From assembly GCF_947258525.1 (NCBI RefSeq), contig NZ_CAMYIP010000152.1:1-36124 (forward strand): a stretch of 36,124 bases of DNA, given 5' to 3'. This DNA is from an uncultured Eudoraea sp. Lineage in GTDB: Bacteria > Bacteroidota > Bacteroidia > Flavobacteriales > Flavobacteriaceae. Shown in pieces: positions 309 to 29,567 of the stretch (position 1 is its first letter; each line of letters opens with the position of its first letter). Made by a program: the position numbers and the translations under genes. Under the pieces are notes generated by a model, which was not told the origin of the DNA, ran no database searches, and saw only the letters and a program-made list of their open reading frames with translations.

Positions 309-1334
309 TTAGTGTTTATGGCTTTCCTTATAATGTTCTTTCAGAAGGTCGCGCCCAAAATCATTTGTAAGATCCCTTACAGCGGTATGAACGTGATTGG
401 CATTATTCTGAGTATTGTCATATTCTATTAAAATTACGGGGTTTTGTAATCTGTAGTAATGGCCTTTTCCCGGTACTAAACTTCCTGCCCATGCAAATGA
501 AAGCTGATTCATTCCCGCAGTATTTATTTTATCTAAAAGAGATTGGGAAAATTCTGATTCATAGTTGTCCAAATAGACCATAAGTAACTTTTCTAAAGCT
601 TTTTTTTGATTTTTATTTAAATCTGCATAGGAAATACCAGGCGGATCAAGATTCGTTACAACTTGTTTATTAGTAGTGAAAATTTCTCTCGGAGCTTTTT
701 CAGAAAAAAGAGCTTTGTCTAGCTGTTCTTTTGAAAGGGAGTTTACCATGGCAAACCCTAATTGTGTTTCTAACTTTAAGACCTCTTTGCCTTTTTGCGC
801 TCCTTCCCGGACTATAGCCGGATTGGAACCCAGGAAAGAAGGTGTAGAGGCAACAATCTTGCCACTTGAAGCAACAAAATTAAAGGAAATATGATGTCCT
901 TCAAACCGCCACCCCCAAAACTGCTGGGTTGCCGGATCATTAAAAACACAAAAATGATAATTAAGTGCATCACGACCCGGTGAACCATCCGGCATTTTAA
1001 ATTTGCCGCCTTCAATCTCCAGCAAAACATCTTCCAGTGCCATGATTTCTTTTGTTTTTCGAAACCCTTCGTTGCTCAATGACGCTCTGAGCAGGGCCAT
1101 TGCAGCATTTTTTTGCTTTTCATTAAAGTCATGAAAAGTGGGTCCTTTCCTTTTTATCGGTACGAAATGAAAATTAAGGCGTTCCTCGCTATCCATTGCA
1201 AAAATTGTCCTTGACTTTAATTCCGGATCCAGAGTGTTTAAAAATTCTGTCGTCAAAGTATTAAGTTCCTGCGAGGATGCAATAGCCATAAAGAGACTGC
1301 ACCCAAACAGTAAAAAAAATGATTTCAATTTCAT
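309..1334 (-). CDS. DUF3500 family secreted protein
   Basis: This 341-residue protein has a signal peptide (about residues 1-21, ending near IASSQ). It matches my memory of the DUF3500 family, whose members are about 300-400 residues long. Recognisable stretches are the FWGWRFEGHHISFNF segment in the middle and the C-terminal HVHTAVRDLTNDFGRDLL segment. The biochemical role of the family is unknown. The start is firm because its ATG (1334-1332) overlaps the TAA of the upstream serine hydrolase by one base (TAATG), an arrangement typical of translational coupling. Because that upstream gene is frameshifted, coupled translation of this gene may be reduced. It sits between the hydrolase and a TPR protein, both exported, so an extracytoplasmic role is likely. 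Confidence 0.8.
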   Translation of the reverse strand: MKLKSFFLLFGCSLFMAIASSQELNTLTTEFLNTLDPELKSRTIFAMDSEERLNFHFVPIKRKGPTFHDFNEKQKNAAMALLRASLSNEGFRKTKEIMALEDVLLEIEGGKFKMPDGSPGRDALNYHFCVFNDPATQQFWGWRFEGHHISFNFVASSGKIVASTPSFLGSNPAIVREGAQKGKEVLKLETQLGFAMVNSLSKEQLDKALFSEKAPREIFTTNKQVVTNLDPPGISYADLNKNQKKALEKLLMVYLDNYESEFSQSLLDKINTAGMNQLSFAWAGSLVPGKGHYYRLQNPVILIEYDNTQNNANHVHTAVRDLTNDFGRDLLKEHYKESHKH

Positions 1335-2792
1335 TAATCCCTTATTTTAGTAGAGTAGTTTCCATGTTGACTGTATCTGGTAACTTTCCCTGTTTCATCT
1401 CTTTCAAATACTATCATCTCACCCGGTTCTTCATCCTTTCTTATTTTTTGAAAATTGTCTCCGTCTACATGCTTCAGGAATGTCATGGATTTGGCAGGAG
1501 ATTGGGAGGGAAGACGCAGCATAACCAGTTTTCCTTCCCAGCTTGAAATATAACTTTCACTACCCCATGGTTGGTTGCTGTAATAACCGGTATAATCCGT
1601 CATATCTTTTTTAGTAGATTCAACTGTTTTACCATTTTTAGTTTCATCTTTTACCTTATTGAGAATGGCATGCATTTCTTTGGCATATTTTGGCATATTT
1701 ATGTGGATTTGTGCCGTTGGCATTAATCATTACAGTATAAGCCATTTTAGATTTTGGATTTAACTGAATTCCGGATCTATAACCCGGACAACTCCCGCCA
1801 TGCGAAACCCATTTTGTTCCATCACTACCTTTAGATACTGCAAAACCTAAACCCCAGGTAGTTTTCCAATCAGGGTCGGTCCAGTGCACCTGTTGCATAT
1901 ATTTTAGAGTGGAGGGTTTTATTATTTCAGTAATGGTTGAATCCATTAACCGAAATTGCCAGGAAGCAAATTTTCCCAGATCCAGTACATTAGATGAGAA
2001 TCCTGCTGCAGCCATAATACCATTTGCCTGGAATAGCTTTACTTTTTTGCGTTGCCCTGTCCTGTCTAAAGAAGAATATCCTATGGCTAATTGACTGCCA
2101 TATAAAGATTCAGGGAGTTTTGTCCTCGTTTCGTTGAGCTGCAGTGGTTTTAGAATATTCTCTTCAACATAGGTGTTAAATGATATTCCGGAAACCTGTT
2201 CTACTATTTCACCCAAAAGCGTAAGACCAAGATTGCTATATTGAAAATAGGTTGATGCAGGATAGAGCGTCTCCTGGTTGCCTAATTCATTTTTGATTTC
2301 CTCCTGGCTGGGAAATGGAAAATCCGGACCTGTCCAATAAGGAAAATTGGCCTCTCTTGGCAGACCAGAGGAATGTGTTAATAAGCTACGTACCGTAATG
2401 GGGCCGCTTTCTGCATATTTCTGATCCAGATTATACCAGGGTAATAGATCACTCACTTTGTCATCCAGTCGCAATTTGCCTTCATCATATAGCTTCATAA
2501 TAGCCGTTGCCGTAAATAATTTAGAAATAGAGCAGATACTGCAAATTGTATTAACTTCTGTATCTACATCTGCTTCCACATTTGCCTTACCATAAGCGCC
2601 AGACCAAATTATTTCCTGATCCTTGATTATAGCGGCAGAAATACCAGGGAGTTTTTCATAATCTTTTTGGGCATCTAACCAGACTTCGATTATTTTAAAT
2701 GCTTCGGAAAAGTCCTTTTTTTGCTCTTGTGCATTGATCTGAAGGCAAATGGTAGCTATTAAGAGAAAAAGTTTAAATTTCATATTATTCAT
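1334..2792 (-). pseudogene. Serine hydrolase of the class C beta-lactamase fold, broken by a frameshift
   Basis: The gene is split in two reading frames. The first part (2792 to 1656, 378 codons) has a signal peptide ending near INAQ. It keeps all the catalytic motifs of the beta-lactamase/penicillin-binding family: SISK at residues 88-91, YSN at 185-187 and HGG at 331-333. It diverges after about residue 368 and stops at 1656. The rest (DYTGYYSNQPWG..., the usual C-terminal domain) continues in another frame to the stop at 1334-1336. A perfect 10-bp tandem duplication at 1679-1700 causes the shift; removing one copy gives the continuous reading NPHKYAKEMHAILNKV. An ATG at 1675-1673 in the second frame lies about 15 bases before the premature stop, so a separate C-terminal fragment could be made by reinitiation. 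The start may also be the ATG at 2783 (MKFKLFLL). A sequencing or assembly error is not excluded. Confidence 0.82.
1679..1700. repeat. 10-bp perfect tandem duplication causing a frameshift
   Basis: The 10-mer TGGCATATTT occurs twice back to back at 1681-1690 and 1691-1700, and period-10 identity extends to 1679. On the coding (minus) strand this is ATATGCCAAA repeated. Deleting one copy restores a single reading frame through the serine hydrolase gene. This is the signature of replication slippage or a recent duplication. Confidence 0.9.
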
Positions 2793-2970
2793 TAGTGTTT
2801 AGTTGGTCTATAGGTAGTTTGATCATTTAAATTAAGTTGTCAAAATGAAATTCAGATACAATTAAATTTTATTTAAAGCATCCGCTAATATCATTCTACT
2901 CTTTCTATGCTGCAGCATTATGGTTAATGAAGCCTATTAAGGTAATGATTATATTAGGAAATTCCCCTGA

Positions 2971-5900
2971 TTATTTTCCTTTTAAATTGGATAAGAACTC
3001 CACTAAATCCCTTAATTCCCTTTTCGACAATACCGTTCCCATGGCAGGCATAGCCGAAGGCATATTTTCTCTTTTCTTTATTCTCGATACTGCTATTTCC
3101 ATAGGTTCTGCATCTGAAGTACGAAGTATTATTTCCTCCTTGTTTTCTGCTGCAAGGACCCCTGCTACTACCTGTCCATCCTTAAGGGTCAATACCACAG
3201 AACCATAACCAGGGGCCAATCTCGCGCCGGGCTCTATAAGGGATTCCAGTATTTCCTCTCTGCTTAGTACATTCGCGATATTATCCATAGGAGGACCTAC
3301 TTTCCCGCCTGCACCTGCCAGAGCATGGCATCTTACGCACTGTGCCGCTGAATTATTCCTGAAGACATTCGCCCCGGCTCGCCTGCTACCTCCATAAAGA
3401 GCTTCTTGGTAGGAATCAACAGAATACCCACTGCTTTTAAGTTTACTTAAACCGGCAATAAGGTCTTCCGATTCAGTTGATTCCACAGCCTCAATCAGAT
3501 CCAGAATCACTCCCGGATTTAATTGATTGTTCCCTGCTTTTTTAACCAGATTCATCAATGCATCGCGACTTTGATCCAGGGGCATCTCTGTTAATGCATC
3601 TATCATGCGCTGCTGCTCCCTTAGAGATCCATTTTTAAAAATTGGACCTATTATCGCAGGCAATTCATTTTTAGGGATATTTAATTCGGGTATTAGCCCT
3701 ACAGCGGCTGCTCGGACATTCTCATCCATATCCTGCATCCCAGTTTTGACGACCAATGTAATATCATCATCACCCAATTCTCCTAAAGCGTCTATCATGG
3801 CAACTCTTACCTCCGGACTCCGGTCCTTGTTTAGAATAGATTTTAGTTGAGCATTGTATGTCGATATTCCAAGGGTTCCCAGGATTTTTGAAGTGCCGAT
3901 AAGAATATTGGGATCCTTGTCCTCTAAGAATATTGGAATATCTCCCTGTATTTTTTCTTTTACAAAATTTGAATCCCTAATTATTTCCCCTCTGTAACGC
4001 CCGTCTACCCTGTCTAATACAGAAGGTGACGCCCAGGTACCTATGGCTGCCAGGGCTTCTCCGCGAAGATCACCAGAGATATCTAATCTTTTTGCAAATG
4101 AAATTAGCATGTCTAATTCATCCTCACCGCCAACTCTTAAAGCTGCATTGATGCTTCTTCGCAACAATGGTTCCGATGTAAATCTTTCTTCTGTCAGAAG
4201 ATTTGCCAGTGCAGGCATGGCTTCCGGAATTGACCAGTCGTCATTGATGGCACGTGCTGCTTCAGTAACTATATACTCGTCATTGTCCTTTAAAAACAAT
4301 GCTACTTCTTCATTTTGTAACCTTCTTAAAACCAGAACCGAGGCTATTCGTAAGCTTCTTTCCGGGCTCTCAGATAAAGCAACTATGGGCTCAATTTCAC
4401 CTATACGGCTTAGTGCCAGAACCCCGGCATGACGTAAATAGACATCTTCATCATTATTAGCGGCCAGGAAATTAATTAAAGGCTGAACAGCATCTTTATA
4501 TTCTATTCTTCCCAAAGCTTGTGCAGCAAAGAAACGCACTCGTTCGTTTTCGTATTCCAACAAAGGAATAAGTTTTTCTCCGGCCTGCTTATATTTTACA
4601 TCTCCAAGAATCTTTGCTGCCTGAGCTATAATTTCCGGATCCTTGTCATCCAATAAATCCAATAAAGGTTCTGCCTTCCTAATATTATCCGAAGCAATCT
4701 GGCCTATTCCCCAGATTGCATGTATTCTTGCGAATTGGTCTTTATCTTCCAGAATTACTTTTTTTAAGGCTTTATATCCCCAAAAAGTTCGTTCTGCAAG
4801 TTCAAATTGAGCTTTTTGCCTTATGCGCATATCCGGATAGGCCAATAGCGCCGTAAGTTCATCAGCCGACAGATCTTCATAGACTTCAGTCATCAGCCTT
4901 TGTGTCTCTTGTCTTTGTGCCTCCAGGTCATTTTTTGAATCCGCTACATCCAACTTCCATACCCTTCCATAATTTTTAGTTCCCCAGCCATTTATCCAGT
5001 CAGCAAGATATAGTGCACCATCCGGACCAAATTGTAAACCCGTAGGTAAGACTCCACTTAAAACATCTAATTCTTTGTCCAGCTCAAAAGAGGCCCCTTT
5101 TGGTTTTAAGTTGAAGGACCAAATATGCGAGCGCCCCGGATCTCCAACAAATTCAACCAAAAAGAATTTATTCAACCAGTCCTTGCCCAGTGCTGTGCCA
5201 GGGTTAAAAACCATCCCTGTAGGGCCATTATGGTAATTGGCAATTGGAGGAATTATATAGGCCGCTTGTCCTTCCCAGCGGGGGAGGTATAGTTTTTCAT
5301 CCATCCACACTTTATAGCTATTGTTCTTGGGATCTGTATATTTTCCATATTGCCAATTAGCCCTCCATCCGGCATCAGAACCTTCAACAATATGAACAAG
5401 GCGTTCACTTTCTCCTCTATGATCCCCATCATTATCTGAAGAAATTAAATTGCCATAGGCATCAAAAACAAATTCATGTGTATTTCGAAGTCCCCTTGCA
5501 AATACCTCAAAATCAGTACCGTCAGGATTGCATCTAACGATCATACCCTGATTGGGCAAGTGGTGTGTTTCTCCTTCTACCGTGGTTATACTAGCTCCAA
5601 TATCACCAATTCCCCAATAAATTTTACCATCGGGCCCTTCTATTGCGCCTGACATGCCGTGGGCTCCGAACCCAATATGAACAGCGAAACCATGTGCAAT
5701 GGAAGTTTTTGTATCCATAACACCATCACCATTGGAATCCTCAACACGCCACATATCAGGACCAATACCAACAAAAATATCATTGTCGCGTACTAATAAA
5801 GCACCTGCGACATCTGTAATTTCTTCATTAAAATCTTCCAAAATACGTGTAGAAACATCTGCAACACCATCCTTATCCGTGTCTTCCAGTTTCCATATTT

Positions 5901-6381
5901 CATCTTTTTCAACCGTTAGATCCTTCCAATCGTGAATACTATCATTATTCAGATCCGGAAACCATTCATTCTCTTCACTGCGTTCCGGGGCAAATGTTTT
6001 TCGTAAAAACGCACGCCGGTCTTCTACGGTTTGCAAACTAATTGAAGCTGTCATCCAATCCTGATGTCCCCTAATATCAAATTCAGAGTTTTTTTGCCGG
6101 TTCGTTCTGGTTAGATATACATTGCCTTCATCATCAATGTCAATGGCAATTGGATCTGGTGCCAATGAATCTGATGCCCATAAGTCCAGGGTTAAACCAT
6201 CCGCTAATTTTGGTGATATATACTCCTGACTTGCATCGGCTATCATTGTTGCCGATAAAGAATCGAGTGAATAAGTCAAGGGGGTTTCCTTTGGTATTTT
6301 TGACTTTTGACTGCAGGAGTGTATCAAAAAACCTACTACAATTAATGCGATTAAATAAGATATGTGCTTTTTTGAAATCAT
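2971..6381 (-). CDS. Large lipoprotein: dehydrogenase-like beta-propeller, HEAT repeats and C-terminal cytochrome c
   Basis: This 1136-residue protein resembles the membrane-bound dehydrogenase / PVC-type heme-binding families (TIGR02604 and TIGR02603-like). The N-terminus has a lipobox ending at Cys23 (LIHSC). Residues about 45-480 look like a glucose/sorbosone-dehydrogenase type propeller. They include three calcium-loop-like motifs (DLNNDSIHD, DTDKDGVAD, DSNGDGVMD) and the GLRNTHEFVFDAYGN segment. Residues about 500-960 are helical HEAT-like repeats (for example IRQKAQFELAE, VRVAMIDALGELGDD). A single heme site CVRCH is at 1015-1019, with methionines at 1107-1114 (NMPSAMPAMG) as candidate axial ligands. 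It would act outside the inner membrane in electron transfer from an unknown substrate, perhaps a sugar. It is 34 bases downstream of the M28 peptidase gene and probably cotranscribed with it. Confidence 0.85.
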   Translation of the reverse strand: MISKKHISYLIALIVVGFLIHSCSQKSKIPKETPLTYSLDSLSATMIADASQEYISPKLADGLTLDLWASDSLAPDPIAIDIDDEGNVYLTRTNRQKNSEFDIRGHQDWMTASISLQTVEDRRAFLRKTFAPERSEENEWFPDLNNDSIHDWKDLTVEKDEIWKLEDTDKDGVADVSTRILEDFNEEITDVAGALLVRDNDIFVGIGPDMWRVEDSNGDGVMDTKTSIAHGFAVHIGFGAHGMSGAIEGPDGKIYWGIGDIGASITTVEGETHHLPNQGMIVRCNPDGTDFEVFARGLRNTHEFVFDAYGNLISSDNDGDHRGESERLVHIVEGSDAGWRANWQYGKYTDPKNNSYKVWMDEKLYLPRWEGQAAYIIPPIANYHNGPTGMVFNPGTALGKDWLNKFFLVEFVGDPGRSHIWSFNLKPKGASFELDKELDVLSGVLPTGLQFGPDGALYLADWINGWGTKNYGRVWKLDVADSKNDLEAQRQETQRLMTEVYEDLSADELTALLAYPDMRIRQKAQFELAERTFWGYKALKKVILEDKDQFARIHAIWGIGQIASDNIRKAEPLLDLLDDKDPEIIAQAAKILGDVKYKQAGEKLIPLLEYENERVRFFAAQALGRIEYKDAVQPLINFLAANNDEDVYLRHAGVLALSRIGEIEPIVALSESPERSLRIASVLVLRRLQNEEVALFLKDNDEYIVTEAARAINDDWSIPEAMPALANLLTEERFTSEPLLRRSINAALRVGGEDELDMLISFAKRLDISGDLRGEALAAIGTWASPSVLDRVDGRYRGEIIRDSNFVKEKIQGDIPIFLEDKDPNILIGTSKILGTLGISTYNAQLKSILNKDRSPEVRVAMIDALGELGDDDITLVVKTGMQDMDENVRAAAVGLIPELNIPKNELPAIIGPIFKNGSLREQQRMIDALTEMPLDQSRDALMNLVKKAGNNQLNPGVILDLIEAVESTESEDLIAGLSKLKSSGYSVDSYQEALYGGSRRAGANVFRNNSAAQCVRCHALAGAGGKVGPPMDNIANVLSREEILESLIEPGARLAPGYGSVVLTLKDGQVVAGVLAAENKEEIILRTSDAEPMEIAVSRIKKRENMPSAMPAMGTVLSKRELRDLVEFLSNLKGK

Positions 6382-6415
6382 TGTTAATAAAGTAACTGAT
6401 TATAGTTAAAGAGGT

Positions 6416-8629
6416 TTATTTTTTAGTGGGTATGGAACAAAGAGAATTAATATGATTGTCTAAGTTATTTAGTGTTTGTGCAAGTATTTTAATTTGCTCC
6501 TGGGCTTCCTGCCATTCTTTTTGCTCGATGGCTTCTCTAACCCCGGGTAATGTTTTAACCCCATAACCTGTGTAGAAGCCGGGCGCATAAATCTGATGTT
6601 TATACCACGGTCTCCTCGGTAATCCGGAGTCAGTGGTTAATGCTAGTTCCGAATGCATAAGTAGCTTATTCAATTTTTCTAGTTCACTATCGGAGAGTGA
6701 ATTAAAATTAATAGAATTGAACCTGACAATCGAGGCTTGGAGTCTGATCATACTATTTTGTATTGGCGTAAAATCCAGATAAGGGATAGCTTCTTTTTTC
6801 TTAGGTTCAACAAAGGGTTTAGTAGGGTCCGCAGCCAGATAAAATGCATTTTCTTCCTTCAATTTGTTGTGCTTTTCTACTTCTTTTCGCATACTTTCAC
6901 ATGACTTCATTACTTCTTTAAGGTAGGTTGCGATGGTCTCCTGTAAGGGATCAAAATTGAAGGGTAAAATATCGGCATTGGCCAGACGCAATACGATCCT
7001 GCCGGCTGTATTTGCCAAAGTAGCTCCATAGGCAAAGTCAGGATCCTTAAATCGTTTGTAATGAGGATAAGTATCGTAGATCGTATGATATTCTCCACCG
7101 GCATTTTCACCACCAAATCCTAGATTCAGCGAAGCAATTCCCGCATGTTGAATAAATGGGGTGTAATCAGATCCTGATCCCAGGGCATAAAGCTCAAATT
7201 TATCCTCCCCGCCATTAATCATATCCCTTGCAATTTTTCTTTCCTTAATAGAAACTCCTTTCTGAGGATCTGTAACCACTTCTGCTACTTCACTTACCAT
7301 AGTCTGTAATGTATGGGAGCCACCTGCGTTGAAGAAACCCCTGCCATTACCATCAGTATTAATGTATGCTATAGCTTTTTTCTGAAGTTCTTCTTTATGA
7401 TGTTCCACCCACTCTGTTGAACCAATCAGTCCCGGTTCCTCGGCATCCCAGGCACAGTAGACTAAGGTTCTTCTGGGGCGCTGCCCCTTTTTAGCCAGTT
7501 CACCGACTGCTCTGGCTTCCTCCATTAGAGCTACCATACCACTCACAGGATCAGCAGCACCATGAACCCATGCATCATGATGGTTGCCGCGCAAAACCCA
7601 TTCATCAGGAAATTCGGACCCTTTAAGAGTAGCTATAACATTGTAGGCAGGTTTTAGTTGCCAGTCAAATTCCAGTTTTAAATGCACTTTTGCCGGCCCC
7701 GGTCCAATATGATAGGTAATTGGTAATCCTCCCCGCCATTTGTCAGGTGCCACTGGTCCTTCAAGGGCTTTTAGTAATGGTTCCGCATCTTCATAGGAAA
7801 TAGGTAATACAGGTATTTTTGTTATTGTAGGCGCATCTTTTCGGTTTAATCTCTCGGCCTCCGGGGTTGCTCCATAACCCGGTGTAAGAACATCTCCCGG
7901 ATAAAGTGGCATATCCATTACTGATCCTCGTTGCACACCGGTTTTATTTTTAAATGCCCCTTTTGGATAAACATCACCGGGAACATACCCATCATCCTTA
8001 GGATCTGAATAAATAATACAACCAATAGCACCCTTTTCGGCGGCTAGTTTAGGTTTTATTCCACGCCAGGATCCGTAATATTTGGCAATTACTATCTTAC
8101 CTTTTACATCTATTCCCAATTTGTCCAATGCTTCATAGTCTGCAGGTATCCCGTAGTTAACGAATACCAGTTCAGACTCAACCTCGCCATCTGTAGAAAA
8201 TGCATTATAACTGGGCAATAACTCATCTCCCTGAGCTGTATATGCATCGCCCTCAACTGGCACCGCTTTTAATTTAGCTTTGTAGGTTGTGGGTTCTGTC
8301 AATTCCAGAACCCTGACTTTTGGGTAGGGGAAGAGGACCTGGTAGGTTTCTATTTTGGCATCATACCCCCAGGATTTGAATTGCTTTAACATCCATTCTG
8401 CCAGTTCTTTTCCATATTCGGTACCTACATAATGTGGCCTGGCTGCCATTTTCTTCATCCATGAATCTAAATTCGCGGTAGATATTTTTGATTCAAAAGC
8501 CGTTTCCAGATCGAGTTGTTTTTGTACATTTTCAGGTTTAAACCCTTTAATGTTCTGTGCATTCAGGGATACAAAAAGAAGGATCAAAAGAAATGAGAGG
8601 TATTTTTTATGCATATTGGTTTTTGTCAT
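6416..8629 (-). CDS. M28 family metallopeptidase, glutamate carboxypeptidase II-like
   Basis: This 737-residue exported di-zinc exopeptidase is built like human GCPII: signal peptide (ending near SLNAQ), a protease-associated (PA) domain inserted at about 140-290, the catalytic domain, and a C-terminal transferrin-receptor-like dimerisation domain. By comparison with GCPII the metal ligands and catalytic residues are visible: His350 in GNHHDAW, Asp360 in GAADPVSG, Glu397-Glu398 in DAEEPGLIGSTEW, Asp426 in YINTDGN, and the His of YHTIYDTYP. It probably removes C-terminal residues from peptides in the periplasm or outside the cell. Translation may begin at ATG 8629 or at the ATG at 8614 (MHKKYL), which gives a more typical signal peptide. 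It lies between the CIA30 gene (21-base gap) and the cytochrome lipoprotein gene. Confidence 0.92.
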   Translation of the reverse strand: MTKTNMHKKYLSFLLILLFVSLNAQNIKGFKPENVQKQLDLETAFESKISTANLDSWMKKMAARPHYVGTEYGKELAEWMLKQFKSWGYDAKIETYQVLFPYPKVRVLELTEPTTYKAKLKAVPVEGDAYTAQGDELLPSYNAFSTDGEVESELVFVNYGIPADYEALDKLGIDVKGKIVIAKYYGSWRGIKPKLAAEKGAIGCIIYSDPKDDGYVPGDVYPKGAFKNKTGVQRGSVMDMPLYPGDVLTPGYGATPEAERLNRKDAPTITKIPVLPISYEDAEPLLKALEGPVAPDKWRGGLPITYHIGPGPAKVHLKLEFDWQLKPAYNVIATLKGSEFPDEWVLRGNHHDAWVHGAADPVSGMVALMEEARAVGELAKKGQRPRRTLVYCAWDAEEPGLIGSTEWVEHHKEELQKKAIAYINTDGNGRGFFNAGGSHTLQTMVSEVAEVVTDPQKGVSIKERKIARDMINGGEDKFELYALGSGSDYTPFIQHAGIASLNLGFGGENAGGEYHTIYDTYPHYKRFKDPDFAYGATLANTAGRIVLRLANADILPFNFDPLQETIATYLKEVMKSCESMRKEVEKHNKLKEENAFYLAADPTKPFVEPKKKEAIPYLDFTPIQNSMIRLQASIVRFNSINFNSLSDSELEKLNKLLMHSELALTTDSGLPRRPWYKHQIYAPGFYTGYGVKTLPGVREAIEQKEWQEAQEQIKILAQTLNNLDNHINSLCSIPTKK

Positions 8630-8650
8630 AATATAATGCGTTTGGACCGG

Positions 8651-9181
8651 CTATTCTAATTCTATCTTATCAAGATATAATTCAAAATCTTCCTTTTTTT
8701 TATTTCCAATTAAAATTGCAAACTGCTCCAAATATTCCCCGGGATAATTAGGAAGATCTAATTTATATCCCCGAAATGACGGGGTCATTTCTGAGAAAAG
8801 AATTTCCAGAGTCTGCCATTCTCCATTAGTCTTAACATAAGCGATATATGAATAATAATCTGAAATACCGGTTTTAACCCTTATCTGATATTGCTTACCA
8901 TCACCCTTAAGGCGCAGTTTGATTTTCTTGTAATTCTTTACTGATTTAGATTCCAGATTGTAACGAACAGAAGAGAAACCACCATTATTTTCCAGAGATA
9001 CGTACCCCTTAAAAAGAGCATGACCGTCATCGCTTAAAGAGAAGCTACCTTTTGAAAGCCCTCCCATTACACCATCATTCACCACTATCCAGTTTTGAAT
9101 ATTGCTATTTTCAGAGAAATCAAAAAGGACAAATGGTTTAGACATCGTGAATATGAAAATTAATAATATTAAGTATCTCAT
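8651..9181 (-). CDS. CIA30 family protein (NDUFAF1-like domain)
   Basis: This 176-residue protein carries the hallmark of the CIA30 family near its start, VVNDGVMGGLSKGSF (about residues 33-47), followed by a galactose-binding-like beta-sandwich with GGFSSVRYN. In mitochondria the family helps assemble respiratory complex I. In bacteria its role is not established, and proteins of this size are common in Bacteroidota and Cyanobacteria. A short hydrophobic N-terminus (YLILLIFIFTM) could be an export signal, but it is short and no clear cleavage site is visible. It is the first gene of the minus-strand set CIA30, M28 peptidase, cytochrome lipoprotein. The upstream 237 bases hold its promoter region and a perfect inverted repeat at 9272-9293. 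Confidence 0.85.
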   Translation of the reverse strand: MRYLILLIFIFTMSKPFVLFDFSENSNIQNWIVVNDGVMGGLSKGSFSLSDDGHALFKGYVSLENNGGFSSVRYNLESKSVKNYKKIKLRLKGDGKQYQIRVKTGISDYYSYIAYVKTNGEWQTLEILFSEMTPSFRGYKLDLPNYPGEYLEQFAILIGNKKKEDFELYLDKIELE

Positions 9182-9271
9182 AAATACCGGATTTGGGTTT
9201 TCGTCCTATTGGTTTAAATAAGAAGAATTTATTTTAATTGTAGCTCCTTATATTCTTAATTGTATTTTTTG

Positions 9272-9293
9272 TCTGAAACAATTTCGTTTCAGA
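9272..9293. repeat. Perfect 8-bp inverted repeat upstream of the CIA30 gene
   Basis: TCTGAAAC at 9272-9279 is complemented exactly by GTTTCAGA at 9286-9293, with a 6-base loop. Neither strand has a T-tract after the stem, so it does not look like an intrinsic terminator. It lies about 90 bases upstream of the CIA30 start, where it could be an operator. The regulator is unknown. The rest of the 237-base gap (9182-9418) is AT-rich with no other clear signal. Confidence 0.45.
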
Positions 9294-9400
9294 TAGCAAG
9301 AGATCATTTTCTAAAAGTAATGATAAAAATAAATTCAATTATTCTAAATTATAACTGTATTTTATCAATTTTTACTTCTATATAAACAGAATGGGAGCCC

Positions 9401-9418
9401 TGTTAGTACTTGTTAGTA
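9401..9418. repeat. Short direct repeat, period 10, just past the DUF2306 stop
   Basis: The 8-mer TGTTAGTA occurs at 9401-9408 and 9411-9418, separated by two bases. It ends directly against the DUF2306 stop codon (9421-9419, minus strand), so it lies outside the coding sequence. It resembles the short tandem duplications seen elsewhere in the window. Confidence 0.6.
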
Positions 9419-10042
9419 TCAGCTTAGCTTTCTAACGATAAAAATCTCTGCAACAATAATATTAGGCACCCAACATAACCAGGCAATAATCTTATAAGCC
9501 GGAATAAATTCAATGCTCAGAAGCCCAGTAAATAATGGCAGATAAAGACGAAGTGTAACAGCAGCAAAACACAGCGCATAACTTCTTATCATCCAGCGCT
9601 GGTGTGCATCAATATCTATTTTTTTTATGCTCGTGTAGGCATTTGATGTAGTATAAAGCCATAATAGGGCTAATCCCGCAAAGCCAAGCGAGGGGATAAT
9701 TCCACCAGTGGCAAAAAAAGCAATCCCCAATCCGGCTAAACCACTTAGTAAGACTGCTATAACATAAATTTTCCCCAATGCCCTGTGCAGCGCCAGTCTT
9801 TTTCTTCTTAAGGTTTTGTAAAACTGCGAAAACCCTGTTAGCAAGGCAAGTCCGCCTAAGAAAATATGAGTATAAAAAGCGGTTAAATAAAGTGAACTTC
9901 TCAGAAGTGTATCCGATTTGGATCCCAGAAGACTTTCTTCATAGGGTAGACCAAGAAAGCGCAATGGATACAAGCCTATGAAAACCGCAAACAATCCAAG
10001 AAAGAAATAGCCTGTTTTGAGGCGTGCTTTTGCTAAATCCAT
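9419..10042 (-). CDS. DUF2306 family membrane protein
   Basis: This 207-residue integral membrane protein has about six hydrophobic segments, at roughly 10-30, 52-72, 90-112, 114-134, 147-170 and 180-203. Two conserved stretches support the DUF2306 call: THIFLGGLALLTGF followed by HRALGKIYV in the first half, and HQRWMIRSYALCFAAVTLRL in the second. Histidines placed near membrane faces suggest metal or heme contact, but no function has been established that I know of. It is transcribed alone, divergently from the TRIC-like channel gene across a 174-base gap. No terminator is visible downstream except possibly the distant hairpin at 9272-9293. Confidence 0.82.
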   Translation of the reverse strand: MDLAKARLKTGYFFLGLFAVFIGLYPLRFLGLPYEESLLGSKSDTLLRSSLYLTAFYTHIFLGGLALLTGFSQFYKTLRRKRLALHRALGKIYVIAVLLSGLAGLGIAFFATGGIIPSLGFAGLALLWLYTTSNAYTSIKKIDIDAHQRWMIRSYALCFAAVTLRLYLPLFTGLLSIEFIPAYKIIAWLCWVPNIIVAEIFIVRKLS

Positions 10043-10205
10043 ATTTTAAAATTGTTTATGTTTTACGGTCAAAGCCTTATGAATTAAATAGTGCCAAGCT
10101 TACGATATTATTGTCAAATTTGCAAAACAATTCATTGGTACCTAATGCATTAACCGGGATTATTTTTATAGTTTTAGCCATGACAATTTATAGTTTTTAC
10201 TAAAA

Positions 10206-21638: not shown

Positions 21639-23579
21639 ATGATGTTAAGACAACAACGTGTTGTAATTGAAAATATTACTCCTCAGCTTCACTGCGGAGC
21701 TTTTTTTATTAAACGGGTCGTTGGAGAATCTGTTATAGTATATGCCGACGTTATCGGTGATGGACATGATATAATTCAGGCAGAACTTCAATACAAACAT
21801 TCAGGCGAGAAATCTTTTAAAACGGCACGAATGGAACATCTGGGAGATGATGTTCACAGGGTTTCTTTTAAGGTACTTAAGCAGGGCTTTTATACTTACA
21901 GAGTTTCAGCCTGGGTAGATCATGCTCAAAACTGGCAGCACGGTATTGAGGCCAAGTTAAAAGATGATCAGCATGTAAACAGTGAACTTTTGGACGGGGT
22001 GCAATATTTGAAGACCTTGCTGAAAAAAATAGGTGCTGCCGATAAGAAGTATATAAATGATTTAATTAAATCTTTTCAAAGCGAAGAATTATATGATACT
22101 GCGGTTAAAGAAGCGGTTTCAGATAAACTACATAAATTATTTGTTGCATATCCAAATCGTTTTTTGGCCAATACAAGTGAAGATCTTAAGGTTTATGTAG
22201 ACAGGCTCAAGGCAAATTTTAGTACCTGGTACGAATTTTTTCCAAGGTCGTCTTCTCCTGTGGAAGGTAAACATGGTACGTTTAAGGATTGTGAACGCTT
22301 GCTGCCCAAAATAGCAGGGATGGGTTTTGATGTCCTTTATTTCCCTCCAATACACCCTATTGGTGAAGTTAACAGAAAAGGTAAAAACAATACTACAAAT
22401 GCCCAGAAGGGAGATTCCGGAGTTCCATGGGCAATAGGTTCAAAGCTCGGAGGACATAAGGAGATACATCCGGAACTAGGAACGGAGGAAGACCTTAAAA
22501 GTCTTATAGAAAAGGCTAAAGAATTGGATTTGGAGATTGCATTGGATCTGGCGTTTCAGGCAGCTCCGGATCACCCTTATATATCAAGTAACCCAGAATG
22601 GTTTAGAAAAAGACCGGACGGCACAATGCAGTATGCTGAGAATCCGCCAAAGAAGTATCAGGATATTGTAAACTTCTACTTTGAATCCCCTGCATTTAAG
22701 GAGCTCTGGGAAGAACTTTTGTCGGTTACACTAAAATGGGTTGAACTCGGTATACAAATATTCAGAGTAGACAATCCTCATACAAAGCCTTATTATTTCT
22801 GGAATTGGTTAATAGCCGAAGTTAAAAAGAAACATCCCGATGTTCTTTTTTTAGCAGAAGCCTTTTCCAGACCTAAGGTAATGCAGCAACTGGCCAAGCA
22901 GGGATTTTCGCAGTCATATACCTATTTTACGTGGCGGGTACACAAGCAAGAAATTATTGAATATATGCTGGAGCTCACCCAATCAGAAATGAAAGAGTAT
23001 TACCGTCCAAATTTTTGGCCCAATACACCGGATATTAATCCATACCATCTGCAAGGGTCAAATGAAGCTATGCATATTGCGCGTTATGCTCTGGCGGCAA
23101 CGCTATCTGGTAATATTGGTATATACGGACCTGTTTTTGAGTATATGATTTCTGAAGCCTTACCGGGCAAAGAAGAATATTTGAATTCAGAAAAATATGA
23201 AGTGAAATTTTGGGATTGGTCTATTGAAAATAAATTAACCCTTATAATTACTCGTTTAAACCAGGCAAGGAAAAACCATGAAGCATTGCAGCAAACCAAC
23301 AATATTAGGTTTTGCCATATAGAGAATCACCAGCTTATTGCATTCTATAAATGGAACGAAGATAAATCGGATGAAGTTTTAGTAGTTATTAACCTGGACT
23401 CTCACTATTCGCAGCGAGGAATGCTTCAGCTTCCTTTAGGCGATTTATCCGTCGATATTAGCCAGGGGATAACCATGCATGACCTTGTCACAGACAATAG
23501 TTATCTTTGGTATGATGAGTGGAATTTTGTAGAATTGCATCCTGCGTTGCCATTTCATATGTTTCATATTAAAAAATAA
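21639..23579 (+). CDS. glgE: Alpha-1,4-glucan:maltose-1-phosphate maltosyltransferase
   Basis: This 646-residue GH13_3 enzyme extends alpha-1,4-glucan with maltose units from maltose 1-phosphate. The N-terminal half (to about 180) is the beta-sandwich and helical domain; the TIM barrel follows. Catalytic residues by comparison with the family are Asp378 (FRVDNP), the nucleophile; Glu407 (FLAEAF), the acid/base; and Asp465 (NTPDINP). Substrate-loop motifs such as VLYFPPIHPIGEVNRKGKNN (232-251) are intact, and the C-terminal beta domain is present. Length is close to the usual 650-700. Two ATGs stand in tandem at the start; either could be used. The maltokinase gene follows after two bases, and a broken glgB after that. 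The gene itself shows no sign of damage. Confidence 0.94.
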   Translation: MMLRQQRVVIENITPQLHCGAFFIKRVVGESVIVYADVIGDGHDIIQAELQYKHSGEKSFKTARMEHLGDDVHRVSFKVLKQGFYTYRVSAWVDHAQNWQHGIEAKLKDDQHVNSELLDGVQYLKTLLKKIGAADKKYINDLIKSFQSEELYDTAVKEAVSDKLHKLFVAYPNRFLANTSEDLKVYVDRLKANFSTWYEFFPRSSSPVEGKHGTFKDCERLLPKIAGMGFDVLYFPPIHPIGEVNRKGKNNTTNAQKGDSGVPWAIGSKLGGHKEIHPELGTEEDLKSLIEKAKELDLEIALDLAFQAAPDHPYISSNPEWFRKRPDGTMQYAENPPKKYQDIVNFYFESPAFKELWEELLSVTLKWVELGIQIFRVDNPHTKPYYFWNWLIAEVKKKHPDVLFLAEAFSRPKVMQQLAKQGFSQSYTYFTWRVHKQEIIEYMLELTQSEMKEYYRPNFWPNTPDINPYHLQGSNEAMHIARYALAATLSGNIGIYGPVFEYMISEALPGKEEYLNSEKYEVKFWDWSIENKLTLIITRLNQARKNHEALQQTNNIRFCHIENHQLIAFYKWNEDKSDEVLVVINLDSHYSQRGMLQLPLGDLSVDISQGITMHDLVTDNSYLWYDEWNFVELHPALPFHMFHIKK

Positions 23580-23581
23580 AA

Positions 23582-25216
23582 ATGTCCAAGAAAAAACAGG
23601 ACTCAATTCTTCAACCTCCCTACTCATTTAATGTGGCCTGGGAAAATTTATTGGACGACAAGAATTTTATAAAAGTTTTTCTTTCAGATGTCCTTGAGGC
23701 CTATGTGGTTAAACAACGCTGGTATGGAGGTAAAGCAAGTAAACTTAAATATATAGAGCTCCGCGAATATTTCAGGATTCAGCAGAAAGGTGAAGTATAT
23801 TATGGTTTATTACTGGAAGTTAATTTTGAAGAGGCGTTTTACCAGCACTATTTTTTACCTATTGCTTTTGTTACCGATGAGAATTTTGCTGAAAAAGAAA
23901 GGATTCTGCCGCTGAGTATTAACGGGCAGGCTGGTTTTATAATAGATGCTATAAACCTGGAGGCTTTTCGAAAGTTAGTATTTGAGCGTATCCTGAACGC
24001 AGAACCAAATGACACTACCAGGGTAAGGTATCATAAAAGTGTTGATTTTCAGGATAAAGTTTACGAATCCTCCCGTTTTATGGGGCTTGAACAGAGCAAT
24101 ACTTCCGTAATAATAAACGATAAATCCGTTATAAAATTTTTTAGAAGGATTTACGCCGATAAAAATCCCGATCTTGAAATGAGTCAGTTCCTTTCAGAGC
24201 GAAAGGGGTACAAAAATACACCGGCCTATCAGGGAAGCATTAGTATTATGGATGCAGAGAATGTTAATGTTACCATAGCATTAATGCAGGAATTGGTACC
24301 TAATCAGGGCGATGCCTGGGATTTTATGTTAATTGAATTACATAAAATCTTTAGTAATCTTGAATATAAAGGAATAAATGTTCATCAGTTACCTCAGACT
24401 GTATTGTTTGAGCGGTTGAACATCAGGAATGTTCCACCTGAAATTATTGATTGGGCGGGTTTGAACATTTTCCTGAAACTTCAGAAATTGGCACAGAGAA
24501 CGGCTGAAATGCATATTGCTTTGGGTTCAGAGTTTGAAGACACTGCATTCACTCCAACTCATTTTAATGGAGATTACGAGGTATGGCTTAAAAATAGATT
24601 GTTATACCAATTTCAAAATAGATTAAATACCGTTGAAAATAACCTCCATCGTTTGGAAGGTTTATCGCTAGAACTGGCTAAGGAGTTTTTGGAGCGGAAA
24701 AATGAGATTAGAAAACGCTTTGTAAATTTTGACTGGACCAAACTAAAAGGAGAAAGGATTCGCGTTCATGGAGATTATCATCTGGGCCAGGTATTGGTAA
24801 AAGACGATGATTTTTATTTACTGGATTTTGAAGGAGAACCCGAAAGTACAATCAGGGACAGGAAGGTTAAGCAGCCCCCTTTAAAAGATATAGCAGGTCT
24901 TTTCCGGTCATTTCATTATGCCGTTTATGCAACAATTTTCAACCACATGGAAGACTATGCATATTCACAAGAAGATCTTTTTCTGGCTGGGGAAATACTT
25001 TATCGATACTTTATTGGAGTCTTTCTGGAAACCTATGCCAGTCTTATTCAGGAGCACAATATAAATATTGGTTATAGGCAGGAAAGAGTATTCCTTTTGG
25101 AATATTGCATGCTTGAAAAAGCAGTTTACGAACTGGGATATGAAATGAATTCAAGACCCAGATGGGCGGTGATACCTTTGCAGGGTATTATTAGTATTAT
25201 TAACGAACCTAACTAA
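23582..25216 (+). CDS. mak: Maltokinase (Pep2/Mak type)
   Basis: This 544-residue kinase phosphorylates maltose to maltose 1-phosphate, the donor for GlgE. The N-terminal cap (about 1-130, with KQRWYGGKASK at 44-54) is typical of maltokinases. The phosphotransferase-like C-terminal lobe has the catalytic HGDYHLGQVL motif (396-405) and the metal-binding DFEGEP (415-420). In many bacteria this domain is fused to trehalose synthase; here it stands alone. It starts two bases after the glgE stop, so the two are tightly coupled. The glgB remnant begins ten bases after its stop. Confidence 0.9.
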   Translation: MSKKKQDSILQPPYSFNVAWENLLDDKNFIKVFLSDVLEAYVVKQRWYGGKASKLKYIELREYFRIQQKGEVYYGLLLEVNFEEAFYQHYFLPIAFVTDENFAEKERILPLSINGQAGFIIDAINLEAFRKLVFERILNAEPNDTTRVRYHKSVDFQDKVYESSRFMGLEQSNTSVIINDKSVIKFFRRIYADKNPDLEMSQFLSERKGYKNTPAYQGSISIMDAENVNVTIALMQELVPNQGDAWDFMLIELHKIFSNLEYKGINVHQLPQTVLFERLNIRNVPPEIIDWAGLNIFLKLQKLAQRTAEMHIALGSEFEDTAFTPTHFNGDYEVWLKNRLLYQFQNRLNTVENNLHRLEGLSLELAKEFLERKNEIRKRFVNFDWTKLKGERIRVHGDYHLGQVLVKDDDFYLLDFEGEPESTIRDRKVKQPPLKDIAGLFRSFHYAVYATIFNHMEDYAYSQEDLFLAGEILYRYFIGVFLETYASLIQEHNINIGYRQERVFLLEYCMLEKAVYELGYEMNSRPRWAVIPLQGIISIINEPN

Positions 25217-25510
25217 CAATAGAAATATGGGCAATGTAATTCCCTATAGCTTATTAACGGATTTTGACATCAATCTTTTTAAAGCGGGTAAGCACTACCG
25301 GCTTTACAATCATTTAGGTTCGCACCCTGTGAAATATAAGGGCAAGAAGGGTACCTATTTTGCTGTTTGGGCACCTACAGCTAAATCGGTTTCTGTCATA
25401 GGTGATTTTAATTACTGGGTAGAAGGAGAACATCAGCTGAATGTAAGATGGGATGAAAGTGGTATTTGGGAAGGTTTTATTCCAGGAGTAGAGCAAGGCG
25501 CTTTGTATAA

Positions 25511-25538
25511 GTATAAAATACATTGTATAAGATTCATT
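25511..25538. repeat. 14-bp imperfect tandem duplication causing a frameshift in glgB
   Basis: GTATAAAATACATT (25511-25524) is followed directly by GTATAAGATTCATT (25525-25538); they differ at two positions. Removing either copy restores the reading LYKYKIHSHNND. Both differences fall at third codon positions that leave the amino acids Lys and Ile unchanged. Confidence 0.85.
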
Positions 25539-25920
25539 CTCATAACAATGATATTAAAACGGAAAAAGCAGACCCTTTTGCCAGATATTGTCAGCATCCG
25601 CCTAATACGGCTTCAGTAGTATGGAATGATGCATATAAATGGAAGGATAAGAATTGGATGGATACGCGTGAGGCCAAAAATAGTTTAGACAAACCGTATT
25701 CTGTTTATGAAATCCATCTTGGATCATGGAAACGCGCCAATGAGGATAAATTTATGTCTTATATAGATCTGGCAGAAGATCTGGTTAAATACTTAAAGGA
25801 AATGAATTTTACGCATGTAGAATTCATGCCCATTATGGAATATCCTTATGATCCTTCATGGGGCTATCAGCTTACGGGCTATTTTGCCCCTACATCCAGA
25901 TTTGGTAAACCGGAAGATTT

Positions 25921-26056
25921 TAAACTTTTCCAATCGGGATGATATCCTTTTCTTCTGTCGGGATTCTCATATAGGTTGGAGCCATCAAAAAAACCTAAGC
26001 CATGGGCATCTTCAGGAAAATGGGAAGGTACCCAATCCAGGATAACCCCAATATCA
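25921..26056 (-). other. Inverted internal segment of glgB
   Basis: Read on the minus strand from 26055 to 25921, this stretch encodes 45 residues with no stop: [20 protein letters not shown], then [12 protein letters not shown], then [13 protein letters not shown]. This is the conserved centre of GlgB (GH13 region I and the following loop), which belongs on the plus strand between PEDFK (ending 25924) and ISNANFW (from 26057). At the left junction the palindrome TTTAAA gives a few bases of microhomology. No inverted repeats suited to site-specific inversion flank the block. Compared with the family consensus as I remember it, about 9 residues before DIG and about 13 after KSL are absent, so inversion came with flanking deletions whose sum keeps the frame. 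Confidence 0.92.
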
Positions 26057-27075
26057 ATAAGTAATGCTAATTTTTGGTTAGATCAGTATCATGCAGATGG
26101 TCTCCGTGTTGATGCGGTTGCTTCAATGTTGTATTTGGATTATTCTCGTGAAGAAGGGGAGTGGGAACCAAATATTTATGGCAATAACGAGAATCTTGAA
26201 GCAATTTCTTTTATACGAGAACTCAATCAGGAAGTATACAGCAGTTTTAAGGGAATTCAAACAATTGCCGAGGAATCAACTTCATTTTCAATGGTCTCTA
26301 AACCTGTTAGTATAGGCGGACTTGGATTTGGCATGAAGTGGATGATGGGCTGGATGCATGACACCCTGGAATACTTTAAGAAAGAACCTGTTTACAGAAG
26401 GCACCATCAGAATGACCTTACGTTTAGTATGACCTATGCTTTTACCGAGAACTTCATGTTGCCTTTTTCCCACGACGAGGTAGTTTATGGAAAGCAGTCT
26501 TTGTTATATAAAATGCCGGGCGATGAATGGCAAAGATTTGCAAACTTAAGATTGCTCTACGGATATATGTTTACGCATCCGGGTACTAACCTCCTATTTA
26601 TGGGTGCGGAATTTGGACAGTCTTCTGAATGGAATTATCAGCATAGTCTTGATTGGCATTTGTTGCAATATGATTTTCACGCTGGGATTCAGGAGCTGGT
26701 AAAAGACTTAAACAAGTTTTATCGTTCATCACCGGCCCTTTATGAAAAGCAGTTCAGCCCTGAAGGATTTCAGTGGATAGATTATGGAGATTATGAGAAT
26801 TCTGTACTTACATATATTCGCCGCGGACATGAACCTAAAAACGACCTGATTATAGCCTGTAACTTTACGCCGGTTCCTAGAGAAGGATACAGGGTAGGAA
26901 TCCCCAAAAAGGGACCTTTGAAGGAGGTTTTTAATAGTGATGCGAAAAAATATGGTGGAAGCGGAAGTAAAAATACCGGAATAAAAGTTTCCAAAACGCC
27001 ATGGCATGGTCATAAAACTTCTATTGAGATTACAATTCCACCACTTGGGATGGTAATTTTCAAATAAATATAGTC

Positions 27076-27093
27076 AACTATAACGTTGTAGTT
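27076..27093. promoter_or_regulatory. Near-palindrome with central AACGTT upstream of the GH31 gene
   Basis: AACTATAACGTTGTAGTT is an 18-bp near-perfect palindrome (one pair mismatched), 75 bases before the alpha-glucosidase start. LacI-family operators often have such a central CG-containing palindrome (PurR-like AACGTT), and these regulators commonly control glucan genes. This is inference; no regulator gene is in the window. Confidence 0.3.
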
Positions 27094-27167
27094 CATAAAT
27101 GGTAGTAATATCGTTTTTCTTTTAAAAGTTAAAGTCTTTTTTTTGTGGGTCTTTTAAATCACCCTTT

Positions 27168-29567
27168 ATGATTACCAATACAGAATTAGAATACAAAGGC
27201 AATTTATATCCCAATCATATAATTAAGTTCAAGCGTGACACCGATAAATTTTATTTTACTTCGGAGAATGGGGTAATTCTTGAAATAACGGTGCTGCGAA
27301 ACAGCGCTATTCGATTCAGATATGCCACGGAAGAAGTTTTTCAACCAGATTTTTCATATGCAATAAGTCCGGATGCCAGCAGGGGTTATAATAAGCTTGA
27401 GTCTACAGAAACAAAAACGGAATATCTAATTACCACTTCGAAGATTACGGTTCTGGTAGATAAAAAAACCATGCGAACACAAATTTCAGACTTAGAGGGG
27501 AATATCATAAATGAGGATGAACTCGGTTTTCACTGGGAGGAGAATTACGAATATGGCGGTAATTCTGTGAAGATGAGTAAGATTACCCAGACTGCTGAAA
27601 GTTTTTATGGTATGGGTGATAAGGCTACCCACTCAAACTTAAAAGGTAAAAGGGTAAGCAATTGGGTAACAGATTCTTATGCCTATAGCAAGGATCAGGA
27701 TCCTTTATATAAGGCAATTCCCTTTTATGTTGGCCTTCACAACGATATTGCTTATGGAATTTTCTTCGACAATACATTTAGAACCCATTTTGATTTTGCT
27801 CACGAAAGAAGGAATATAACCAGCTTTTGGGCAGATGGGGGAGAAATGAATTATTACTTCTTTTATGGCCCTGCCATGTCTAAAGTAGTCAGAGCTTATA
27901 CAGATCTAACTGGCACACCCGAAATCCCACCACTTTGGGCATTGGGCTTTCATCAATCTAAATGGAGTTACTTCCCTGAGAGCAATGTTAAAAAAATTGC
28001 TGCAAAATTCAGAGCTCTTAAAATACCTTGTGATGCCATCTATCTGGATATAGACTATATGGATGGATTTCGTTGTTTCACATGGGATAAGAAAAAATTT
28101 CCTGACCCTAAGGCCATGATACAGGATTTAGAGGAAGACGGCTTTAAAACTGTGGTCATGATAGATCCGGGCATTAAAGTAGATAAGGATTATTGGGTAT
28201 ACCAGGAAGCCTTAAAAAATGATTATTTCTGTAAAAGGGGAGATGGACCCTTGATGCGAGGTAAAGTCTGGCCCGGAGAATGTAGTTTTCCCGATTTTAC
28301 AAATCCGGAAGTCAGGAAATGGTGGGCAGGCCTCTATAAAGAGCTCATGTCAGAAACAGGAGCCCATGCAGTATGGAATGATATGAATGAACCTGCAATA
28401 ATGGAAGTTCCTTCTAAAACGGCACCATTAGATACCAGACATGATTTTGATGGCCATCCATGTAGTCATAGAAAGGCTCACAATATTTATGGTACTCAAA
28501 TGGTAAGGGCAACTTTTGAAGGTGTCAAAAAATACGTTTACCCTAAACGGCCTTTTGTAATAACAAGGGCGGCATATGCCGGAGCGCAGCGTTTCTGCTC
28601 TACCTGGACCGGAGACAATGTTGCTACATGGGAACACCTTTGGATTGCGAATGTACAGGTTCAAAGAATGTGTATGAGTGGTATGTCCTTTGTTGGTTCT
28701 GACATAGGAGGATTTGCAGAGCAACCAAATGGAGAACTTTTTGCCAGATGGATTCAATTAGGAGTCTTTCATCCATTTTTTAGGGTGCACTCCAGTGGAG
28801 ACCACGGAGATCAGGAGCCCTGGTCATTTGATAAGGAAGTAACCGGTATAGTAAGGAAGTTTATTGAATTAAGATACCAGCTTCTTCCGTATCTCTATAC
28901 CATGTTCTGGAAATATTCAAATGAGAACATACCTATGCTTAAACCTTTGGTATATTTTGATCAGGAAGACCATCAAACACATTTTAGAACAGATGAGTTT
29001 ATATTCGGAGAACAAATATTGGTCTGTCCAATTCAGGAACCAAACGCAATGGGAAGAAGAATGTATATTCCCAGGGGAAAATGGCATAATTTTTGGACTG
29101 GTGAGGTTGTGGAAGGAGGAATGGAAAAATGGGTTCCGGCAGATATTGATAAAATTCCAATTTTTGTTAAAGAAGGAGCAATAATTCCCACATATCCTGT
29201 CCAGCAGTATGTTGGTGAAAAAGTTATCGAAGAATTAATCCTTGATGTTTACTTTAAGTTGGGTATTGAAAATTCCTCAGTTTATGAAGATGGACATGAC
29301 GGTTATGATTATACAAAAGGGAATTATAGCCTCAGGAATTTTAAATTGAATGGTAAGAAAAATGAATTGATTATTCAGCAGTTTAAAAATGGAGCATTCG
29401 TTACTTCTTATAGTTCATTTAAGATTAATTTAATTGATTTGCCATTTACTATAAAAGAAATAGAAGTAGACAATGAAATTGTACCACTTAAAGATCTCAT
29501 AAAGAATGGAAATAATGCAATACAAGTCACTAAGGAATTTACTGTATTGCACATAGTAGGTAAATAA
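27168..29567 (+). CDS. GH31 alpha-glucosidase
   Basis: This 799-residue glycoside hydrolase of family 31 removes alpha-linked glucose from the non-reducing ends of maltodextrin-type glucans, or a related alpha-glucosidic substrate. The nucleophile is Asp405 in WNDMNEPA and the acid/base is Asp483 in TWTGDNVATWEHL, both family hallmarks. The N-terminal beta-sandwich covers about 1-240, the barrel about 250-590, and beta domains the C-terminus. No signal peptide is visible, so it is cytoplasmic. It is the last gene of the glucan cluster, 100 bases after the glgB remnant, and probably recycles the glucan made by GlgE. Codon use and length are normal, with no damage. Confidence 0.93.
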   Translation: MITNTELEYKGNLYPNHIIKFKRDTDKFYFTSENGVILEITVLRNSAIRFRYATEEVFQPDFSYAISPDASRGYNKLESTETKTEYLITTSKITVLVDKKTMRTQISDLEGNIINEDELGFHWEENYEYGGNSVKMSKITQTAESFYGMGDKATHSNLKGKRVSNWVTDSYAYSKDQDPLYKAIPFYVGLHNDIAYGIFFDNTFRTHFDFAHERRNITSFWADGGEMNYYFFYGPAMSKVVRAYTDLTGTPEIPPLWALGFHQSKWSYFPESNVKKIAAKFRALKIPCDAIYLDIDYMDGFRCFTWDKKKFPDPKAMIQDLEEDGFKTVVMIDPGIKVDKDYWVYQEALKNDYFCKRGDGPLMRGKVWPGECSFPDFTNPEVRKWWAGLYKELMSETGAHAVWNDMNEPAIMEVPSKTAPLDTRHDFDGHPCSHRKAHNIYGTQMVRATFEGVKKYVYPKRPFVITRAAYAGAQRFCSTWTGDNVATWEHLWIANVQVQRMCMSGMSFVGSDIGGFAEQPNGELFARWIQLGVFHPFFRVHSSGDHGDQEPWSFDKEVTGIVRKFIELRYQLLPYLYTMFWKYSNENIPMLKPLVYFDQEDHQTHFRTDEFIFGEQILVCPIQEPNAMGRRMYIPRGKWHNFWTGEVVEGGMEKWVPADIDKIPIFVKEGAIIPTYPVQQYVGEKVIEELILDVYFKLGIENSSVYEDGHDGYDYTKGNYSLRNFKLNGKKNELIIQQFKNGAFVTSYSSFKINLIDLPFTIKEIEVDNEIVPLKDLIKNGNNAIQVTKEFTVLHIVGK

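Follow-up and report, generated by a model that had tools for sequence, protein, structure and literature searches.

A reversed 135-bp block in glgB of a Eudoraea-like draft genome is most likely an assembly artefact

Does a short reversed segment inside a metabolic gene record a mutation in the organism, or a mistake in the building of its draft genome? The question is raised by glgB (1,4-alpha-glucan branching enzyme; 25227–27067, plus strand), which was delineated by genome comparison, Pfam matches and open reading frames (ORFs) and is broken in the window analysed here. The window is a 36,124-nucleotide stretch, positions 1–36124 of contig C152 of the draft genome G000, from a marine, Eudoraea-like species of the Flavobacteriaceae. 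The draft comprises 249 contigs and 3.82 Mb, with an estimated completeness of 100% and contamination of 2.2%. Within glgB, a 135-bp block (25922–26056) lies on the minus strand. The evidence favours, with a probability of about 0.86, an artefact in which a piece of the assembly was misplaced, rather than a mutation, and the flipped block is most likely not biology. A literature search on Eudoraea found no publication on this glgB locus.

The orientation of the block was examined in 31 genomes, that of the draft itself included. Sixteen gave no match, and in all 14 other genomes with a match glgB runs opposite to the segment 25922–26056 as found here. The same reversal is evident against each of the six same-genus regions compared, one of which (G007) was used only from position 21909 on. 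Outside the block these six regions are collinear with the window, apart from insertions, losses and a single 40-bp hairpin in the reference genome G003 (Eudoraea adriatica DSM 19308, the closest named match). When read on the minus strand, 25921–26055 encodes 45 residues with no stop codon, and the resulting protein differs from the GlgB of G003 at one of the 44 residues compared. At the DNA level 17 of 132 bases differ, 14 of them at third codon positions. The initial annotation had proposed just such a reversed 45-residue portion of GlgB, with sequence lost at both junctions and the same frame on either side, and the comparison bears it out on each count. When the gene is instead read straight through, the flipped block contributes one in-frame TGA.

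Relative to the same-genus genomes, approximately 23 bases are absent to the left of the block and approximately 40 to the right, the edges of the alignment being uncertain by 2–3 bases. The left junction carries six bases, AAACTT (25922–25927, plus strand), that are common to both sides, while no shared bases were seen at the right junction (26056–26057). With this overlap included, the total loss is 69 bases, and the outer frame is therefore kept; the figure matches the difference in length to G003 and to the relative G006, both about 55 bp longer over the locus, once a 14-bp duplication further upstream is allowed for. The block is 92.5–93.2% identical to its counterparts in the relatives G006, G001 and G007 and 88.7% identical to that of G003. 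A foreign origin was considered and dropped, as 1.6–4.2% of the segments of the window are equally divergent and the start of glgB is likewise so. An invertible DNA switch was also rejected, since site-specific inversion would require each end of the block to carry a copy of an inverted repeat, retained in either orientation. Three pairs of inverted repeats were found in 25860–26120, none of them at both block ends, and an 8-bp pair present in G003 sits in the flanks that are absent here.

The flip is not the only lesion in the gene. An imperfect tandem duplication of 14 bp (25511–25538, plus strand; 12 of 14 positions equal), overlooked in the initial annotation, lies ∼ 400 bp upstream of the block and already breaks the frame. 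Its first copy resembles the sequence of five relatives and its second that of G003, so that two alleles stand next to each other. From their sequence, the two copies look as if overlapping contig ends of different variants were juxtaposed. Apart from these lesions the pieces of glgB show no decay. The Pfam domains CBM_48 and Alpha-amylase_C are recognised at the start and end, respectively, and most differences from G003 fall at third codon positions, both in the upstream piece (26 of 31) and in the downstream piece (95 of 117). Therefore glgB, if dead at all, would have died very recently. A second copy of glgB was not found in the draft, where the search returned only the pieces in the window and one weak match elsewhere (E = 5e-4). 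The gene belongs to a cluster (21639–29567) whose order is shared by G003 and G006 and whose other members encode a GlgE-like maltosyltransferase, a maltokinase-like protein and a GH31 glucosidase; the maltokinase-cap match of the neighbouring protein is marginal, at 22.2 bits with a cut-off of 22.

If contigs had been wrongly joined, similar breaks would be expected elsewhere in the same draft but not in its relatives. Split genes were counted among ORFs of at least 80 residues having a counterpart in the other genome. The sample of the draft consisted of 36 contigs, whole or partial (816 kb, four of them masked), made up of the window, contigs C1–C20 and 15 further contigs chosen by search, by size or at will. 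The sample of G003 amounted to 992 kb and gave long matches for 13 of the 36 contigs, with 543,858 aligned bases. Across this aligned sequence 13 of 479 ORFs of G003 are broken in the draft, as against one of 496 ORFs of the draft broken in G003, and an earlier, smaller sample had given 5 of 211 against 0 of 221. Thus, about one gene in 40 appears split in the compared part of the draft.

Examination of 11 of the 13 breaks, in genes otherwise well conserved, showed seven clean losses without N, two accompanied by runs of N and two, both in the window, with short tandem duplications. The glgB gene is one of these last two and bears the flip in addition. The clean losses measure about 23, 43, 55, 80, 118, 148 and 152 bp, and in six of the seven the junctions share 0–2 bases, that on contig C98 being ambiguous. 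The second duplication in the window, of 10 bp at approximately 1690–1709 (minus strand), was located from ORFs and comparison and splits a gene (1337–2792, minus strand) into ORFs 1656–2792 and 1334–1723. The product is an AmpH/class C-type serine hydrolase that falls below all NCBIfam cut-offs, and this duplication is probably another bad join. The remaining two of the 13 are small ORFs of 84 and 87 residues. One of them, on contig C216, probably represents ordinary divergence because it is located where the sole reciprocal split lies.

Several of the broken genes encode core metabolic enzymes. Above their NCBIfam cut-offs are inosine monophosphate (IMP) dehydrogenase (guaB; contig C18, G003 gene L158:12697-14169), phosphoenolpyruvate (PEP) synthase (C98, L160:17118-19520) and a monomeric isocitrate dehydrogenase (C164, L177:3181-5460), and below the cut-off is a purF-like gene (C11, L147:17015-18913); each is interrupted by a sharp loss or a run of N. 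Both guaB and purF function in purine synthesis. Three of the ten broken-gene proteins scanned gave no family.

An assembly error also predicts that gaps elsewhere in the draft are wrongly sized. Indeed, all three runs of N that could be measured are too short, with 9, 20 and 39 N standing for approximately 53, 50 and 150 bases of G003; two further runs have no counterpart in the sampled G003 sequence, which itself holds two N runs. The glgB join probably shares its cause with the other breaks. In this scheme a scaffolder or gap closer would probably have inserted a short contig of ∼ 135 bases back to front between two larger ones. The short unread stretches flanking it (∼ 23 and ∼ 40 bases) would have been closed up completely, their size having been estimated at zero or less. 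Underestimated gaps would elsewhere leave either undersized runs of N or sharp losses, and overlaps left unmerged would give short duplications. We infer that contig joining with poor gap estimates is the simplest account of all the lesions. A paper describing a scaffolder states that spurious links make the order and orientation of contigs ambiguous (PMC4262078). The draft resembles known scaffolding errors of short-read assemblies, in which contigs are wrongly oriented or gaps wrongly sized, in its sharp joins within genes, its undersized N runs, its one short reversed piece and the lack of decay on either side. On this reading glgB is probably forward and whole in the organism.

A number of observations weigh against an assembly error. 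Other wrongly oriented pieces might be expected of one, although they are not required, and no second inverted piece was seen in the aligned bases; four other reverse matches of 30–44 bp proved to be hairpins that match themselves reversed. The one-sided count of split genes would also be expected if many genes of the draft had truly been broken in recent times. Moreover, the six bases shared at the left junction are more than simple abutment usually yields. A random inverted join in the same stretch gives six shared bases with P = 0.0017 (200,000 draws), and they are better explained by polymerase template switching, either in the cell or during amplification. G003 also carries a perfect 8-bp inverted repeat (AACTTCAT/ATGAAGTT) within the two flanking stretches that the draft lacks. 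Even so, the readings other than assembly error are, taken jointly, considered unlikely.

A real mutation made by two template switches would proceed as follows. A nascent end in AAACTT would re-anneal to AAGTTT, located on the other parental strand ∼ 150 bases downstream, 135 bases would be copied backwards, and the end would return to its own template further on with loss of the flanking bases. The local reversed copy, the loss of flanks and the microhomology at one junction are all features of template-switch mutations and microinversions, and the 8-bp repeat and the preserved outer frame would fit such an event. The microhomology is, however, confined to the left switch point (six bases, against zero at the right), the 8-bp repeat is imperfect in G006 and G001 as judged by eye from the alignment, and no inverted repeat is kept at the ends of the block. 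In a study of human and chimpanzee genomes, the microinversions described are 17–33 nt long and flanked by inverted repeats (PMC8755829), whereas the block here is 135 bp. It also sits in a draft with other sharp gene breaks, in a gene that has a separate duplication ∼ 400 bp away and is otherwise without decay, and the template-switch mutation is accordingly judged improbable. The fuller version is judged slightly less probable still: a very recent inversion of this kind, together with the nearby 14-bp duplication, would have knocked out the genome's sole identified branching enzyme, within a glgE-type cluster. The initial annotation regarded the locus, if real, as plain evidence that a small inversion had destroyed a metabolic gene; this reading is not supported. 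The split-gene counts favour a fault of assembly.

Least probable of all is a chimera that arose during whole-genome amplification or library preparation and was carried into the contig. Template switching in amplification would account for the six shared bases, and chimeras from multiple displacement amplification (MDA) are described as showing inverted sequence, an intervening deletion and short complementarity (PMC1855051), much as seen here. This would nonetheless take two chimeric joins, and those other breaks of the draft that were inspected look different and are not inverted. In addition, single amplified cells do not usually reach a completeness estimate of 100%. Of the three causes offered by the initial annotation, the assembly fault is the one that gains support from the comparison with G003, through the split counts, the wrong N runs, the sharp joins and the core genes affected.

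An assembly error at glgB carries a warning for surveys of gene loss and of microinversions, in which breaks of this sort, here affecting even guaB and a purF-like gene, should not be taken for biology without reads. Were the inversion real, it would offer a neat natural instance of local strand switching in a bacterium.

As a control over the region of the window, ORFs of G003 or G006 were set against six relatives in ten comparisons, eight of which contained no split gene. In the other two the same single gene is split, in the draft G002. This gene, of 1135 residues in G003, lacks ∼ 21 residues at approximately position 3391 of the G002 region, in which L114 and L115 were joined and reversed; an error of this type may thus have affected a second draft as well. 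Towards the start of the window, G001 is without most of 410–10061 at the corresponding place, and ∼ 390 bases at 9391–9779, which make up over half of ORF 9419–10042 (minus strand), are absent in G003 and present in G006.
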